Origin: Rhodosporidiobolus odoratus
Taxonomy: Eukaryota > Basidiomycota > Microbotryomycetes > Sporidiobolales > Sporidiobolaceae
Assembly (NCBI GenBank): GCA_034387635.1
Contig: JAOANU010000029.1
Coordinates: 62,001 to 126,000, forward strand
DNA length: 64,000 bases
Direction of reading: 5' to 3'
Positions 3,545 through 48,100 of this stretch are shown in pieces (within the stretch, counting starts at the first letter, position 1; every line of letters starts with the position of its first letter). The notes beneath the pieces were generated by a model that saw only the letters and a program-made list of their open reading frames with translations, made no database searches and was not told the DNA's origin. The translations under genes and the position numbers were made by a program.

Positions 3545-3652
3545 TGCCCAGGGTGGATTGAACACCCGGCCTCGGCATTTCTAACAACTCACCACTCGAA
3601 GATGTGCAGGTGTTGATACGAGTGCCGCGCTCTGCCACTGAGCTATAAGGGC
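3545..3652 (-). tRNA. Intron-containing tRNA-Thr-like sequence (anticodon CGT), acceptor stem shortened
   Basis: On the minus strand the unit starts GCCCTTA, then TA, a canonical D-arm (GCTC-AGTGGCA-GAGC with both box A Gs), anticodon stem CGGCA/TGCCG with loop CTCGTA and an intron of about 35 nt after position 37, variable loop AGGCC, and T-stem GGGTG/CACCC with loop TTCAATC. The anticodon CGT reads ACG (Thr). The 3' acceptor strand is TGGGC rather than the TAAGGGC needed, so two bases seem to be missing. Internal promoter boxes look intact. It could be a decayed gene or an unusual functional one. Confidence 0.55.
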
Positions 3653-7580: not shown

Positions 7581-10500
7581 ATGGGCGTGTAAGCTCTCCT
7601 CTCGGTCTCACACTCCCCCGCTTCATCCTGCCGCTGACCATCGCCACCCTGAATCAGTCCCGCCCTCTTCCGATGGCTCTCCCGCAAGTACCCCAAGATA
7701 GTCCTCCCCGTCGTCGAGGACCAACCCGTCACCCTGCCCGGAGGCCCAGATTCAGAGGGAGAAGTCATTGTGGGTGCCGTTTTTCTTTTCTACTAGGCGC
7801 CCTTGCTGCTACCGAGCGTCGTCGCCTGCGGTATCGATATACACCCGCCCGCGTCGTCCGCTGCGTCAAAGGTGCAGCGGATGAGCGGGCGAGCTTAGGA
7901 CTCCCCCGCCGGGAGGCGGGTGACTGGCGCCTGCGGCAGTATACCCTCTCTCGCGCCTGCGGCACCATCGGACTCTGGCGCCTGCGGCACTATCGGACTC
8001 TGGCGCCTACGGCACTATACACTCTGTGTGTCGTCCGCCACGAGTGAAGCGGGAGCGAGCGAGCCGTGGTTCCTGCTGGCGCCCGGGGCAATATCCCCTT
8101 TAGCGCCCGCTGCGATATCGAAGTCTGGCGCATCGAGACAGCCTCCCCTCGAGCGTATCGTACTGACTCATTCGACGATCCTACAGCCCGTCGATATGTC
8201 TGGTCCTAATCCGAATGGAGAAGAGTTTGACTGCTTATATTTGGACATGAATGGTATCGTGCACCCATGTACGCATCCAGAGGGCAAGGTGCGTCTGTTT
8301 GTGCTGTGTCTCCATCTTCAGGCTTACTAACTAAATTCTTCCCTTCCGTAGCCCGCCCCGAAAACCGAAGAAGATATGATGCGCGAAGTCTTCCTCTACA
8401 CCGATCGTGTCGTCTCCATGGTTCGACCCCGCAAGCTTCTCATGATGGCCATCGACGGTGTCGCCCCCCGTGCCAAGATGAACCAGCAGCGTTCGCGTCG
8501 GTTCCGTGCGGCTCAGGAAGCGAAGCAAAAGGAGGAAGATCGTCAGAATGCCATCAAGGAATGGGAGGCCATGGGTAAGGAGGTTAGCGATGAGTTTAGG
8601 AATGAGAAGGGATGGGATTCGAATGCTATCACGCCTGGCACGCCGTTTATGGATTTATTGGCCAAGAGTCTGAGGTATTGGGTTAGGAAGAAGATCAACG
8701 AGGACCCGGGATGGGCTGGAGTACGTTCTACCTCTCTGCCTCAGCTCTTCATATACATCAGCTGACGAGTCGCGTCGTTCCAGCTCGAGGTCATCATTTC
8801 CGACGCCTCAGTACCGGGAGAAGGAGAGCACAAGATCATGGACTTTATCCGTCGTCAACGAGCTCATCCTTCCCACGACCCCAACACGAAACACGTCATC
8901 TACGGTCTCGACGCCGATCTGATCATGCTTTCGCTCGCCACGCACGAGCCGCACTTCCGTGTCCTGCGTGAGGATGTGTTTGCAGACGAGAAGAAGAAGC
9001 GAGGATGTCACCGATGCGGGCAGCCGGGTCATCACTCGAGTCAGTGTACTGGTACGTCTCGATCTCTTGTACCCTTGACAAGACGAGCCGCTGACATTGC
9101 TGCAGGCGAAGTGAAGAAACCCGAAGCCGATTTGACCCCGAAAGGCGGTTCCCCGCTCAAACCCTTCATCTTCCTTGACGTCGCCATCCTGCGCGAATAC
9201 CTCGCCGTCGAACTCTCAGCTCCCGTTCATTCGTTCCCCTTCTCACTCGAACGTGCACTGGACGACTGGGTCTTCCTCATCTTCTTTGTCGGAAACGATT
9301 TCTTACCTCACCTCCCTTCTCTCGAGATTAGGGAAGGTGCGATTGATACGCTCATGACGATATGGAAGAGTAGCTTGGATAGGATGGGGGGATACTTGAC
9401 TGAGCATGGAAAGGTCAGGTTGGAGAGGGCGCAGGTTATTCTGGAACAGTTGGCGATGAGGGAGGATGAGATCTTTAGGAAGAGGCGTGAGGGTACGTTT
9501 TGCGACCGATATCCATACTCCTCCGTTCGCTAGATGCTCACTCCCCTTTTCTTACTGGGCAACCTCAACAGCTGAGGAACGTCAAGACCGCTCCGAAAAG
9601 CGTCGTCGCATCGATCGAGAACAGCAACAACAACCTCATTCGATGCGCAACTCGGCTCAAAATCACTCTCAACTCTCTTCGGGTTCCGGTCAGACTCACC
9701 GCAACGGCATCGATTATGTCGAAGTCAACGCGAACGGATCGGCCGCTACCACGGCCTCGAATGGGCCGGGTGGACTGCCGAACAAGCCAACCTGGGCGGC
9801 GGGTGAGGCGGACAAGGAGGCGGACAAGGGCAAGGAGCAGGAGCAGGAAAAGGGTAAGGGAGCGGTCGGTCTGGTCGGAAGCAACGCCAGTATCGTGGCG
9901 AATCGCAAAGCGCTCCGTATGGCCAATCTGAGCGCGGCGGACATGCTCAAGGCTGAGTTGGCGGGCGGCGAAGCTCCGGTAGTTGAAGAGGGCGAAGGTG
10001 AGAAGGATGAGCCGGCGGTGGTGGAGGAGAAAAAGGCGGAGGAAGCGGGTGAAGCTGAGGCGAAGAAGAATGCGGAGGCGGCCGCGGCGCTCAAGGCTCA
10101 GTTACTGGCGGGAGATGGTGAGGATTCGGCGGAAGAGGTTACGTCGCCGAGAGGAACCAAGCGGCCTGCGCCGCCTGAGCCGGCGGATGCGGAGATGCAG
10201 GAGGCAATTAAGGAAGAAGCGGACGATGCGCAGGAGGATGCCGAGGTCAATGCCTTCTTGCAGAACTCGTTGCTGCCGCCCAAGCCGGCCACGGTTGCTG
10301 GACTCGGGGTGGATCTGCCGCCGCCTCTGAAGATGCTTGGCAACAATGTGGTCGAGCAGGATGACACTGTCAAGTGAGCGCAATTTCGATTTCTCCGTGT
10401 CTCAGTCAGCACACTTACCTCTTTCGCACTCTCCTCGCAGGCTCTGGGAACCGGGCTACAAGGAGCGATACTACCGTCAAAAATTTGGCGTCGAGTTGAG

Positions 10501-20427: not shown

Positions 20428-23360
20428 CTACGTATCCTGCCCGCCCACCGCCTTTACAGTACTCTTCTTCTTCGCCTTCGAGACCTCGACCACAATCTCC
20501 TCTGCGGCCTGGTCAGGAAGAGGTCGACGTTCCCAGATCTACGAGATGAGGGGAGTATGTCAGCAAGACCGCGGGAAACCAAACAACCCCAGAGCAGCAC
20601 AGGTAGAGCAGAAGAGCAGACCAGCCAGGCCACAAAAAGGGGAAGAAGCGACATAACTAAATACAGAAAGGAAAGAAAAACGCACCTGAACATAACTCTC
20701 CCCCAAACTAACCAACCCCTCCTCGACCTCCTTGACATCCAAATCGCACACCTCAAACCACTTCATCTCCTCCCCCGCCGTCGCTTCGGTTTGGTCTTGG
20801 TTGCGAAGGTGCATCTGAACTTTCCAGGCGGTTTCTTGTTTCGCCGTTCCGGCCGTTGAGGAGTGGGTCAGGTTCGAGACTAGGTCGTAAAGGGTTGACA
20901 GGGTTGGTTCCGCGTTCAAGGAGGAGGAGGAGGAGTCGACGTCTGCCGGGAGGCGAAGAACGTCAGTTAGCCGTAGGGACTTGGGACAGAGGAGAGAGAG
21001 AGAAAGTGCCATTAAGGGCAACGCACAATCCTTCATCTCGACCCCCCGAACACCAAAGTTGACAATCGTTGGGTTCTTCTCTTCCAAGAACCGATTACTC
21101 AAAAACCTCTTAAACACGCAAATCAGATACCTCGGCAACTTCTCGACTTTGTACCTCCGGACCAAACCGTTCTCTTCGCGAGCGGTTTCGCCGTCGTATT
21201 TCTGTAGGACTTGAGAGAGGGGCACTTGGGGGATGATGTTGGAGGCTTGGACGTCTTGGAAGAGCGGGGGCGGAGGGAGGTCGAGGGCTAGGAAAAGGAA
21301 GGGGGTGTGGGTGGTTTTGTTTTCTACATTGGTCGAAGCGGATGATAACAGTGACATCGGGAAATGAAGTCAGCGACTGCGGAATGACAAGCGTGGGCAG
21401 GAATATTGAGATGAGTCCGACTCACCTCGATCGACGTCGAACCTGACCCCTCCAGCACCTTCCCTCAGCTCCTTCCGATCCGTGACCTTCTGCTTCAGAA
21501 TCGTCTGATCCTCCACTCGCAGATGTCCCCGGAAGGTCGAATAGATAATGCCTGCCCACCGAGTCGGGGTCAGCCACGATTGCACGAGAGACGCAATGAG
21601 CGATGAGAGGAGGGGGGGACGCACTGCTCCGGTCCTTCTTACTTCCCCCGAGATCCCTATGCAGCGTATTCAGGATCCACCCCAAGAACTCTACCGGATC
21701 ACCCGCCTCCGTAATCCTAAACCGTCCATCACTCCTCGTCCCGACCTCTTGCAACAACTCGTGCGGACTAACCTGAGCCTTGAACAGACGGGGGTTCCAC
21801 ACTTTCCGAACAAACTCTGCGAACCGTCGGACCAGTTCTGTAGGGCCAGAAGAGGAGGCGGGATGAGGGAAGGAGGAGAGGGGAGTGAGGAGGAAGTAAT
21901 CCCTCAAAGGAGGGACGTGAACCAATGAATGAAGAATTGCGTTGAGGTAAGAATTCGACTTCATGTTGTTCAATCCGACGAATCCGGGCCAATACGCTTT
22001 ATCGTTCAGATCCCGTTTCGGGACCCTCTCGCCATCGAGTCGTTTGACGAGGTCTTTGGTGAACGTCGGGGCGAGGGCGTATTGGATATCGGCGAGGGAA
22101 GGGTCGTTTACTTCGTAGCCATCGGGAAGGACCCAGACGGTTTGGTTGACGAGACTGATGAAGACGTGGTGAGAGTCGGAGATGGCGTGCGCGTAGGCCG
22201 GGGTGGAACGCCCTCGGCCGGAGAAGTAGCGACCGCAGACGAGGCAGCAATAAATGTTGTTATGGGTGAGGGTTGTCGAGCAGAGGCGTTCAAAGTCGAA
22301 GTCGAGCAAGGGGCGGGAGATCTGCGGGGCAGCAGAAATTGTGGAGAAGGGAGGTAGTCGTAAGACGAAGACAAGACGTGTGAAAGCAAATGAGGACGTC
22401 GGAGCAGATAAGGAACAGAATCCGGGGCAGGGGAGAGGCGTGTAAGGTCAGTACAAACTACGAGGAAGGCGCGCTATGCTTGGCGGCAGACCCCAGACAG
22501 ACGACACTGCCGCGGGCGCCAGAGAGGGTATACTGCCGCGGGCGCCAGAGTCCGATACTGCCGCGGGCGCCAGCGGGAACCCTGCCTCGCTCGCTAGCGC
22601 TCGCTCGGAGCGCACATATAGAGGGCGCTGTCGCGCCCCTCGCTGATCGCCTGCGCTAGGCGATCTCGCTCGGTAGAAGCAAGGGTGCCCTTGAGAAGAA
22701 AGAAACCCACAGTATCGAGGTACAGATCCTTTGGCCGCTTGCCCTCTTGTGCATTCGCCTGCTCCTGGTGTTCCTGCCTGAGGAGAGCATCATAATCGAC
22801 CCAACCGTCGTCGTCCTCCCCTTCTCCCGCTGATGCTTCGACTTCAGCTTGAGCCTTTGCTTGGAGGTCGGTGGGGTCGGCACGGTTGGGTTGTTGGGCG
22901 GGTTGGATGGGGAGGGCTGGTTGTTGGGTTGGAGAGGCGGGAAGGTGGGGAGGGGAAGGGGCGGAGGGGAAAGAGGGAGGTTGAGGGGGTTGAGGGGACC
23001 GAGAGGTTTTTTGTCGCTTGTTGGTGTCGGCGAGTTGGTCTCCGTTCGAAGGATCCTCAGCAGGTCGTTTTCCATTTGCCGGTGGCTGTTCGGGTTGTGC
23101 AGGTGATTCGGGAGTTGGTTCGGGTTGACCTTGGACGGCCGGGGGAGCTGAAGGGAGTAGACCCTGGTCTGCTTGAATGAGACGGGCTACGAGGTCTGCC
23201 TTGAGACCAGTTATCGGCAGATGTCTCGACTGGAGAATGTCCTAGTGAGGATACAAAGTGGTGAGTGGGGATGAGGAGGAGAGAAAGAGAGAGAGAGGGA
23301 GATTGAACTGACTTTGAGATCTGCTACTTTGAGTTTAGCATAGTCGGTACCGGATGCCAT
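20428..23360 (-). CDS. SAD1: U4/U6.U5 tri-snRNP ubiquitin-protease-like factor SAD1/USP39, with N-terminal SAP domain
   Basis: Seven exons (23360-23313, 23241-22711, 22321-21625, 21551-21426, 21323-21027, 20942-20686, 20538-20428) give 688 residues. Residues about 5-45 (YAKLKVADLKDILQSRHL and GLKADLVARLI) form a SAP motif. A Pro/Gln-rich linker follows. DLYLDT|ISRPLLDFDFERLC then opens the USP39 core with its UBP zinc finger (CLVCGRYFSGRG, later HAISDSHHVF). The USP-like domain reads GLNNMKSNSYLNAILHSL, with Ser where active proteases have Cys, as expected for the inactive USP39/SAD1 group. ESYVQIWERR near the end is typical. SAD1 is needed for tri-snRNP stability and pre-mRNA splicing in the nucleus. 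Intron 2 (22710-22322) is an introner-like element. Divergent from UTP25. Confidence 0.95.
22322..22710 (-). mobile_element. Introner-like element in SAD1 intron 2
   Basis: A 389 bp intron on the coding strand, starting GTGGGTTTC and ending CTGCCCCGCAG. It shares CCCTTGCTTCTACCGAGCG with the RAT1 element and AGCGAGGGGCGCGACAGCGC with the RRP5 element. Three 25-26 bp units of the type CTGGCGCCCGCGGCAGTAT lie at about 22501-22572. It has strong self-complementarity (GATCGCCTAGCG/CGCAGGCGATC, GGGCGC/GCGCCC, GAGCGAGCGCTAGCG). The last ~140 bp before the acceptor have no match in the other two copies. The other introns of this gene are 71-102 bp. Confidence 0.75.
22501..22572 (-). repeat. 25-26 bp tandem units inside the SAD1 element
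   Basis: Three adjacent units, each with GGCGCCCGCGGCAGT, followed by ATCGGACTCT, ATACCCTCTCT or GTCGTCTGTCT. The two spacer types are the same two seen in the RAT1 element. Confidence 0.8.
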
Positions 23361-45199: not shown

Positions 45200-48100
45200 A
45201 TGCCAGGAAAGACCCGAACATCCACTTCGCACGGCCCGGCCCAAAACAAGAAGCAATTCAAGCACGACAAACGATCAACTCCCTCAACTTCACGTCCAAC
45301 CGCATCCTCCAGCGCCAAGCCCACCTCGCACTCCACCTCAGCCGCCACCGAAGACGTTTTCTACCGCAAGCGCAAAGCTACCGAAGATGAACCCGACAAG
45401 GTCGTCCTCGGCGCTCAATCGTCCCTCTTGAACCAGCCAGAAGAGATCGACTTTCCTCGTGGCGGAGGATCTCAGTTGACCCAGAAGGAGGTCCGGGAGG
45501 CTCAGCTGGAAGGAGAAAACGAGGCAGATCAGGTGGGGCCCGCTTTTCTTCCGACCCAGGAGGCGTTCATTCCCGAGCGTCGTCTCCTGCGCCAAGAGGC
45601 GATGAGCGAGGGGCGAGTCAGCGCCCTATATACGCATATCCCCCCCCCCGTGTCGTACGCTGCGCCGAAGGTGCACCGGATGAGCTGGCCAGTGGGGCGT
45701 CGTCGAGCGCGGGGAGCGCTCGATGACCTTTCGGCGAGCGGGCTTGGGACTCCCCCCACCGGGAGGCGGGCCACCGGCGCCTGCGGCCATACCCCTCTAT
45801 GGCGCCGGAAGCAATATATCGCTTCGTGTTCGCTACCTCGATAAAGTTCAATAACGGAAAACCCGCCGACCCTGGCAGTCATGGCCCGTCCAGACTCCTT
45901 ACTGACATACTGTTCCATCCCACAACCGCAGGAACGAGTCCGCGAGACCGAGATCGTCAAGGACAAGGGCAAGGCGAAGCGTCGGAAACTCGAGCGGGCA
46001 CTCGTAGGGAAACAGGTGGATGAGAAGAACAGGGTGCCAAAGGATGCGGTCAGGGTGGAGCACTTGAACTACAAGGTCCGTCTACGTCCCCTTACTCGTC
46101 TGTGTCCGATCCTTACTTGAAGTCTACTCTGTGCAGCGACTCATCCCTGGCACCAAAGTCCTCTCGCAAATCGTCTCCATCCGACCGCTCGAACTCATCC
46201 TCTCCCTCCCCTCCCAACTCTTCGCTCACGTCCCCATCACCAACGTCTCCACCGAGTTCACCTCGCGCCTAGAAGCTGCCGGAGCATCCTCCGATTCTGA
46301 CGAAGACTCAGACGAGGACGATCTTCCGGCGCTGAACGAGCTGTTTGAGGAGGGTCAGTGGGTCCTTGCGGTTGTGGTCAATGCGAAGGACTCGGATTCG
46401 AAGGTCAAGCTTGGAGGAAGGGAGGGCGACGAGATGGTCAGGCAAAGTCGGAGGGTCGAGATGAGTTTGGAGGTCGAAAAGGTTAACGAGGGAGTTGCAA
46501 AGGGAGACCTCAGGCGGGGTTTCGTGCGTTCTTGCCTATCATATTCCGCCTTCGCACTCTTTGACAGTCTCCTATTACGTGACTATAGGTTCTTCCCGCC
46601 GTCGTGCACGACATCGAAGACGACCGTGGCTACACCCTCTCCTTCGGCCTGCCCTCGTTCACTTCTTTCCTACCGCTCTCAGACGCCTCCAAATTCCGTT
46701 CTGCCCCTCTCGAGATTGGACAGCCACTTCTGACGCGAATCACCAAGCTTCATTCGAACGAGCGAACGTGCACTGTAGCAGTGGAGAAGTCCGACGTGGC
46801 CGCCACCACCACCGACGCAGTCTCTTCCATCACCTCCGTCTTGCCCGGTCAACTCGTCAGCGCTCTGATCACGGCTGTCATGCCCACGGGTCTCAACGTC
46901 AAACTGCACGGTTACTTCGACGGAACCCTCGATCTGTTCCACCTCCCACTTTCTCCCGGACAAAACCCTGAAGATCACTTCAAGGCGGGGCAGAAGATCA
47001 AAGCTCGAGTCATCTGGGATTCAATCGCGAGTAGCCCGAAGAAGTTTGCCCTGAGTGCGGCGCCGCAGGTGGTTGGATTGAGGGAGGAGGCGGAGAAGGT
47101 CGACTGTGAGGTTGGGAGGAAGGTTAAGTTCGAGGTGAAGGAGGTGGAAGAGGAGTGGGGATTGATTGGAGTGTTGAGCGGCGGCGAGGAAGGAGCCGAG
47201 GAAATCAGGGCTTTCGTTCACGTGCGTTCTATCGTCTTCCCGAGTCTGCTTCAGTGCTCCACGGGTGGAATTTCTCGTCTCCTCGTGTCCTTGACCGGTA
47301 CTTGTACAGATCTCCCGTATCTCCGATTCTCACCTCAACACGATCCCGAAAGCTGGACCTTGGAGGGTGGGAACGGTCCATGCTGCGAGGGTGGTAGGCT
47401 ACTCTGCAGTCGATGGACTCGTCCAGCTTTCCCTGCAAGAAAGCGTTCTTGAGCAGGCATTCTTGAGGGTTAAGGACGTGCAGGTTGGTGCCGAAGTCAA
47501 GGTGCGTCAGACGGCGTCTTGTCCTGGCTTCCTTCCTTATCTGTGGCAGCAAGAAGGAAAGACTTATTTTCCTTTCGGTTTACTTCTTTTGCAGGGTACT
47601 GTCAAGCGCCTCTCTGACTCCGCCCTCTTCATCTCGATTTCCGGTAACGTCGATGGCGTGGTCTGGCCCCTCCACTACGCCGACATCCGCCTCAAACACC
47701 CGGAAAAGAAGTTCAAGCCGGGACAGACTGTCAAGGCGCGCATCTTCTCTGCCGACGCCGAGAAGAATCGTGTTGTCCTCACCCTCAAGAAGGCGCTCCT
47801 TACCACCACCCTGCCCATCATCACCTCCTTCGAAGAGGCTCGCGTTGGCGTAGTTACCGATGCCACCGTCACCAAGGTCCTCGAGAAGAGCGTCCTCGTC
47901 GACTTCTTCGGAGGTCTTCGCGCTCTCATCCCCGCCGCCGAAGCCGCCGAGTCCTTCACCTCCGCCTCTGATCTCGCTCGTCTCTTCCCTCTCGGCAAAG
48001 TCCTCCCCGTCCGCATCATCTCGGTCGATGTCGCCTCGCAACGTATCGTCGCCTCCGTGCGACAAGCTTCGAACCCCTCCGCTGCGCTCTCATCCGCTGC

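Follow-up and report, generated by a model that had tools for sequence, protein, structure and literature searches.

The genome of Rhodosporidiobolus odoratus (24.8 Mb, 45 contigs) contains at least 36 copies of an element that, as far as can be told by gene prediction and protein families, lies within an intron and in sense orientation in all 36 known cases. With a confidence only slightly above even, we read it as a sense-only, RNA-structured, intron-borne mobile family of the introner-like kind, which enters new intron positions as well as old ones. The window, that is, the whole stretch of 64,000 nucleotides analyzed here, holds three of the copies, in RAT1, SAD1, and RRP5, and a sequence-only reading had claimed that these unrelated genes carry related introns, all in sense. 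Reading of the sequence bore out the coordinates, lengths, and GT..AG ends given for the three introns, and blastn within the window bore out their relatedness, joining them through segments of 32–82 bp with 74–93% identity and E values down to 3e-13, all in sense orientation. The element is delimited below by all-against-all blastn.

7770..8186, + strand: intron 2 of RAT1 (XRN2-type 5'-3' exoribonuclease), 417 bp, phase 0, GTGGGT..CAG
7811..8119, + strand: element of the RAT1 intron, the part common to at least two other copies
7852..7886, + strand: conserved hairpin CGTCG..GAGC of the RAT1 element, 11/11 pairs including a conserved G.U
7924..8018, + strand: tandem array in the RAT1 element, 3.8 copies of the 25-bp unit CTGGCGCCTGCGGCACTATCGGACT
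8163..8167, + strand: CTGAC in RAT1 intron 2, read from the sequence, which we take to be a putative branch-point motif
22322..22710, - strand: intron of SAD1 (USP39-type), intron 2 of the sequence-only reading, 389 bp, phase 0, GTGGGT..CAG
22499..22674, - strand: element of the SAD1 intron
22493..22573, - strand: tandem array in the SAD1 intron, about 3 copies of a 26-bp form of the CTGGCGCCTGCGGCACTATCGGACT unit
45533..45931, + strand: intron 1 of RRP5, 399 bp, phase 0, GTGGGG..CAG
45570..45817, + strand: element of the RRP5 intron
45578..45607, + strand: first conserved hairpin of RRP5, degraded, 8/11 pairs
45698..45728, + strand: second conserved hairpin of RRP5, 3 mismatches to the commonest form

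Similarity among the three introns is modular and does not run over their full length; it begins 36–41 nt past the donor and stops 67–177 nt short of the acceptor. The joining of the exons that had been proposed is in frame for all three introns; the alignments of spliced RAT1 with solved RAT1/XRN2 and of spliced SAD1 with the solved human SAD1/USP39 protein run unbroken over the junctions, and the junction of RRP5 is read from the frame. Runs of at least 10 C lie within or adjoin the element introns at window 45640–45649, at L032, and at L038 (minus).

The genome was searched with the three window introns and with sequence patterns, and nearby matches, once merged, amounted to 34 places distributed over 18 contigs, all covered by the DNA examined (20 stretches of 10 kb, six of 2.4 kb, and the window). 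The relatedness of the window introns goes beyond chance, given that TGGCGCCTGCGGCA occurs 28 times genome-wide vs. once for the reversed control, and that the 31-base hairpin with no more than three mismatches has 23 matches vs. none in the control. With two mismatches allowed, the pattern gives 150 sites vs. 76 for the control. A covariance model of one module, scanned over 282 kb, yielded the 35th copy (L038 1877–1971, minus, 45 bits), and one of five one-mismatch pattern sites outside the known copies yielded the 36th, which is degraded (L055, 31 bits); the other four of these sites contained no element and were kept out of the count. The number of 36 is a lower bound, since the model was run over 282 kb and two-mismatch sites were counted only inside known copies. 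Seven weak model matches with E values of 0.13 to 6 stand outside the count (L029 5350, L029 8023, L025 1205, window 29157, L028 6947, L031 8873, and L026 2431), and weak antisense matches of the model coincide with near-palindromic hairpins of known copies. The introner-like family thus extends well past the three introns from which it had been proposed. Rfam returned nothing in five element loci, the RAT1 intron had no match among plasmids, and the RRP5 intron had none among phages. Over the window, Rfam gave a single match, to tRNA (3545–3652, minus), spanning 108 nt for a model of 71 positions, and this is probably an intron-containing tRNA gene.

The copies are about 80% identical, their best shared segments of at least 60 bp having a median of 81% and a maximum of 95% when two segmental duplications are excluded. 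Because of this divergence, the family appears too decayed to be called active now, and we see no sign of current activity; near-identical copies, as in active fungal introner-like elements (ILEs), were not found. Of the suggestion that the family “is or was active”, the genome-wide spread stands, and the present tense seems excessive for copies so diverged. The lack of near-identity bears on activity more than on the kind of element, and the cited ILE papers, in the parts consulted, allow decayed families (PMC4457414, PMC3443670).

Contigs shorter than 200 kb carry 14 of the 34 copies as a raw count, the mean relative distance of the copies to the end on contigs longer than 500 kb is 0.32 vs. 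0.5 expected if evenly spread, and several copies are paired a few kb apart (C7, C11, C14, C33). Local spread was rejected as an explanation, the ten pairs less than 30 kb apart showing no significant excess of similarity over pairs from different contigs (p = 0.33), and so was a link to the mating-type locus, with STE3 on C17, a contig without a known copy. The copies L044 4462–4806 and 6541–6885 (C39:4.5–6.9 kb) belong to a tandem duplication of the 5' part of a striatin-like gene, in which exon flank and element are 100% identical over 355 bp and diverge soon after the element, which places the duplication breakpoint inside the intron. L040 2711–2880 and L041 9181–9341 (C40:2.8 and 28.7 kb) are inverted duplicates, one close to each end of a 29.5-kb contig, and are 96% identical over the element.

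The placement of the copies was predicted with a small gene finder trained on DNA of this assembly, the elements being replaced by stop-rich filler, and 33 of 34 copies fell within an intron of a predicted sense gene; the sole miss was RAT1, whose intron is confirmed by protein alignment. Masking of the BLAST core alone shifted some donors, and the donors of L025_8916, L039, L040, and L041 were set by hand, RAT1 being added by hand as well. An antisense intron model also covers the element, beside the sense model, at L031, L035, and L037, and at L029_7439, L031, L032, and L033 the stretch scores higher as an antisense gene than as a sense gene; the placement of L031, where an antisense intron fits as well, is the least certain. 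Introns make up about 19% of the window according to the gene finder, and therefore 34 of 34 intronic copies would be expected by chance with a probability of about 1e-24.

Protein support was sought for 33 of the 36 copies, with 31 spliced proteins compared with Pfam and RAT1 and SAD1 with the PDB, which takes in all copies but RRP5 and the second one in each of two duplications, and a protein family or solved protein backs the sense gene in 26 of these 33. In 15 of them, the alignment runs over the junction itself: RAT1, SAD1, a sugar-lactone oxidase/dehydrogenase-like protein, a protein kinase, an alpha/beta hydrolase, a PNP/UDP-type phosphorylase, a JAB/MPN protein taken for eIF3f, an SMC_N protein taken for SMC3, CDC37, an MFS transporter (below the cut-off), a GCD14-type tRNA methyltransferase taken for TRM61, a mitochondrial carrier, a DUF1295 protein, an ING protein, and striatin. 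The 35th and 36th copies split the mitochondrial carrier and GCD14-type methyltransferase genes. In eleven further cases, the sense protein has a domain to one side of the junction or to both (cullin, SEC18-like, ankyrin, NUBP, SNARE, VHS/FYVE, RPN13, EH, sortilin, and two CorA stretches at or below the cut-off), and seven cases have no Pfam family over the cut-off (L025_2110, L027, L029_5912, L031, L034, L040, L043). Copies without protein support are placed, as predictions, by reading frame and splice sites. The host genes belong to unrelated protein families, no intergenic or antisense copy is among the 36 found, and the expectation that genome-wide matches would coincide with introns, in sense only, agrees with the predicted placement of every copy. 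The element introns are presumably spliced in vivo.

Within their genes, the elements sit close to the 5' end. In the 29 element genes with a predicted start, a set that leaves out RAT1 and four copies without one, a median of 414 bp (335 coding nt) separates the element from the ATG, vs. 1966 bp for the 179 other introns of the same genes (p = 5e-10), a contrast that would be exaggerated wherever the gene finder joined neighboring genes, and the element intron ranks among the first three in 27 of the 29. The shared part of the element measures 83–505 bp, has a mean GC of 67%, and contains repeated CGTCG-stem-loop-stem-GAGC hairpins together with copies of CTGGCGCCTGCGGCA. It starts 5–87 nt (median 30) past the donor and ends 25–481 nt (median 115) before the predicted acceptor, some acceptors being uncertain, and the 5' side of the intron is shorter than the 3' side in 33 of 34; the 3' gap exceeds 250 nt at L033, L034, L043, L044_4462, L046, L047, and L050, where some acceptors may be wrong. 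The remainder of the intron without the element has a median of 158 bp, vs. 93 bp for the other introns predicted by our own gene finder.

The donors also set these introns apart. GTGGG is found in 13 of 34 element introns (two of them hand-set) vs. 8 of 310 ordinary predicted introns of no more than 150 bp (Fisher 1e-9), and GTGAG in 10 of 34 vs. 25 of 310 (8e-4), whereas GTGCG, which together with GTACG dominates the ordinary short introns, is found in 2 of 34 vs. 97 of 310. When one copy from each of two segmental duplications is left out, the first 30 nt of the element introns have a likeness of 13.7 vs. 11.5 in ordinary introns (reached in 0 of 2000 permutations), and the last 40 nt show a slight likeness among themselves (reached in 30 of 2000). 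By the gap to the donor, the first 30 nt, and the donor signature, similarity therefore extends to near the 5' splice site. Target-site duplications flanking the introns, for which the sequence-only reading had proposed to look, were not seen, the mean match run being 2.82 vs. 2.74 in permutations (reached in 270 of 1000) with some acceptors uncertain, and no terminal inverted repeats were noticed on reading the printed copies.

The hairpin stems show compensating changes. Across the 15 modules that were aligned, both sides have changed at 5 of 11 stem pairs (reached in 6 of 500 shuffles), with 15 double-change cells vs. 4.4 in shuffles (0 of 500). In a set of 36 distinct hairpin arms, which includes three mis-hit units and from which two units shorter than 27 nt were dropped, 88% of cells pair vs. 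75% in shuffles, 7 pairs change on both sides (15 of 500), and there are 58 double-change cells vs. 22 (0 of 500), which fall to just 11–24 when the partner is slid by 1–3 columns. Further pair types are not outstanding (145 of 500 shuffles for the 36 arms, 21 of 500 for the 15 modules), and the shuffles leave the relatedness among copies in place. A separate hairpin table holds 33 distinct units with at least 7 pairs. Paired changes could also arise by palindrome repair at the DNA level; this is countered by the third stem pair, which is G.U in 31 of the 36 arms and G-C in 5, given that G.U in sense becomes C/A on the antisense strand, and this points to pairing in RNA. In 32 copies, with one copy of each of two segmental duplications left out, the sense strand folds better than the antisense strand in 23 (p = 7e-4), with a mean z of -2.43 vs. 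-1.72, both strands folding better than shuffles; z falls below -2 in 20 of 32 copies in sense and for the antisense strand in 12 of 32, and several copies score close to zero. Taken whole, the introns of SAD1 and RRP5 fold barely better than shuffles (z -0.20 and -1.67). Stable RNA secondary structure, a trait of fungal ILEs, is thus found in this family by fold z and covariation together.

The presence of introns in relatives was read from unspliced open frames among the protein matches for 3 of the 36 positions, one of which looks new (SMC3) and two of which look common to relatives (RAT1 and eIF3f). At SMC3, the closest match, P0129, runs straight over the element position, with another intron visible unspliced, and therefore has no intron there; the SMC3 intron would be either a gain here or a loss in the relative, and the creation of an intron is suggested. 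At RAT1 intron 2, P0012 (87% identical) starts MSQ just ahead of the junction, continues past the next exon end, and seems to have an intron at this position, and P0013, P0021, and P0023 read through. At eIF3f, P0127 and P0121 enter an intron at the element codon, and P0122 reads through; for P0127, a GTGGGT donor is implied, belonging to a short intron at the identical position, and thus the GTGGG-type donor may belong to the host intron. The comparison with relatives that the sequence-only reading had called for is therefore divided: the SMC3 position is empty in the closest relative, but the RAT1 and eIF3f positions appear occupied, and these count against the claim that the element creates introns, being the very observation which that reading had set against itself. 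RAT1 intron 3 (8289–8351), an ordinary short intron, is apparently common to P0118 and P0119 (80–85% identical), and P0012 reads through it. The nearest named protein relative is Leucosporidium creatinivorum, the best RAT1 match (82%), and Leucosporidium is placed in the class Microbotryomycetes in the part of PMC12093110 consulted.

The introner reading keeps its genome-wide, intronic, sense-only distribution, its own donor signature, and sharing up to the donor, but target-site duplications are absent, the acceptor side is weak, and two of the three compared positions are occupied in relatives. In the mechanism that we propose, the element would be a string of short hairpins in sense RNA with a GTGGG/GTGAG donor and a T-rich stretch of its own, and each copy would be excised as part of a spliceosomal intron. 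The family would most likely spread via the intron RNA: once excised, the structured intron would re-enter transcribed DNA or RNA close to gene 5' ends, always in sense, through reverse splicing or some similar event templated by RNA, either at an intron-free site (SMC3) or, for RAT1 and eIF3f, at or within an intron already present. The RNA intermediate, the reverse splicing, and the creation of introns are steps that we infer. More tentatively, an intron may have turned into a selfish element at the RNA level, with its hairpin array selected as sense RNA, re-entering in sense only within the first few hundred bp of genes, founding new introns and overwriting old ones at their positions.

A possible, somewhat doubtful alternative is a non-autonomous repeat that enters pre-existing introns, near the donor of 5'-proximal ones, and never makes an intron. 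It would suit the occupied RAT1 and eIF3f positions, a sharing that does not clearly reach the acceptor, and the long intron remainder (158 vs. 93 bp), but random entry predicts both orientations and any distance from the donor, whereas the 36 copies are all sense and, in all but one of 34, have the shorter flank on the 5' side; the donor signature with the alike first 30 nt also speaks against it, and so does the SMC3 relative without the intron, although a loss is possible there. That same relative, together with the unrelated families of the host genes and an element length varying from 83 to 505 bp, makes it unlikely that we are dealing with a functional RNA structure of 5' introns (e.g., a splicing or expression enhancer), selected and spread by ectopic gene conversion, even though the strong 5' bias, the compensating stem changes with sense-specific G.U pairs, and the better sense folding are all in its favor. 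A MITE-like DNA transposon inserted everywhere, of which the sense intronic copies survived, is disfavored and seems highly improbable: its GC-rich inverted repeats would fit, and most published introner families look DNA-based in the part of PMC9860276 consulted, but there is no target-site duplication, no terminal inverted repeat was noticed in the printed copies, and none of the 36 copies is intergenic, even though, according to the gene finder, exons and introns leave about 36% of the window uncovered.

We compared the mobile, sense-only family that we prefer with known systems, among which the ILEs of Dothideomycetes were reportedly described by van der Burgt in 2012. As far as the excerpts consulted go, ILEs are co-linear with transcription and fold stably (PMC3443670), and the present family resembles them in that unrelated genes carry related introns that always follow the direction of transcription, and in its stable predicted RNA structure, its lack of transposon hallmarks, and its decay over time (PMC4457414, PMC3443670). 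It differs from them in its basidiomycete host, in its identity of about 80% vs. the near-identical active ILEs, in its variable hairpin strings with compensating changes, in its confinement to gene 5' ends, in its weak acceptor-side similarity, and in having two of three compared positions occupied in relatives. Introners are known from few lineages (PMC8476143, in part); a survey found them in 175 of 3325 genomes and, in its consulted part, names Pezizomycotina alone among fungi (PMC9860276). The same part describes fungal introners without target-site duplications or terminal inverted repeats, as here, where the former are absent and none of the latter were noticed, and it asks for at least four similar introns in unrelated genes, biased to genes, of which we have 36 copies. 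Its working definition demands similarity to near both splice sites, unlike the acceptor-side gap here, with its median of 115 nt, and its introners generally have a lower GC than exons, unlike our element with 67% (PMC9860276). The sister stwintrons of Hypoxylaceae, according to the excerpts consulted, likewise place similar introns at many positions in one fungus, but are nested twin introns (PMC8469720, PMC12403724), and no nesting was noticed here. Intron gain by repeat expansion in Cryptococcus also concerns similar introns in a basidiomycete, but its copies, as far as the source was seen, lie inside one repetitive gene (PMC2395259), whereas ours lie in unrelated genes. Among the listed titles and abstract openings of the open-licence literature, we found no report of introners in Basidiomycota, and one may exist elsewhere. 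By its sense, intron-only placement and its structure, we regard the family as introner-like, with covarying hairpin strings, a strong 5' bias, and both old and new positions as features that we did not meet in the consulted parts of the literature on known introners.

How introns arise has long been unsettled, and the best candidates for a route through RNA are the introner-like elements of fungi. A basidiomycete family with covarying stems, sense-only placement, and a strong 5' bias provides testable features for such a route; positional biases of intron gain are mixed, and a 3' bias is the prediction of reverse transcription of mRNA, according to the part of PMC3443670 consulted. The same source discusses the proposal that reverse splicing favors existing intron positions, and this family, which may sit at new and old positions alike, bears on that proposal (PMC3443670). 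If the more tentative scheme were true, a selfish intron acting at the RNA level would combine, within a single family, the creation of introns with their replacement.
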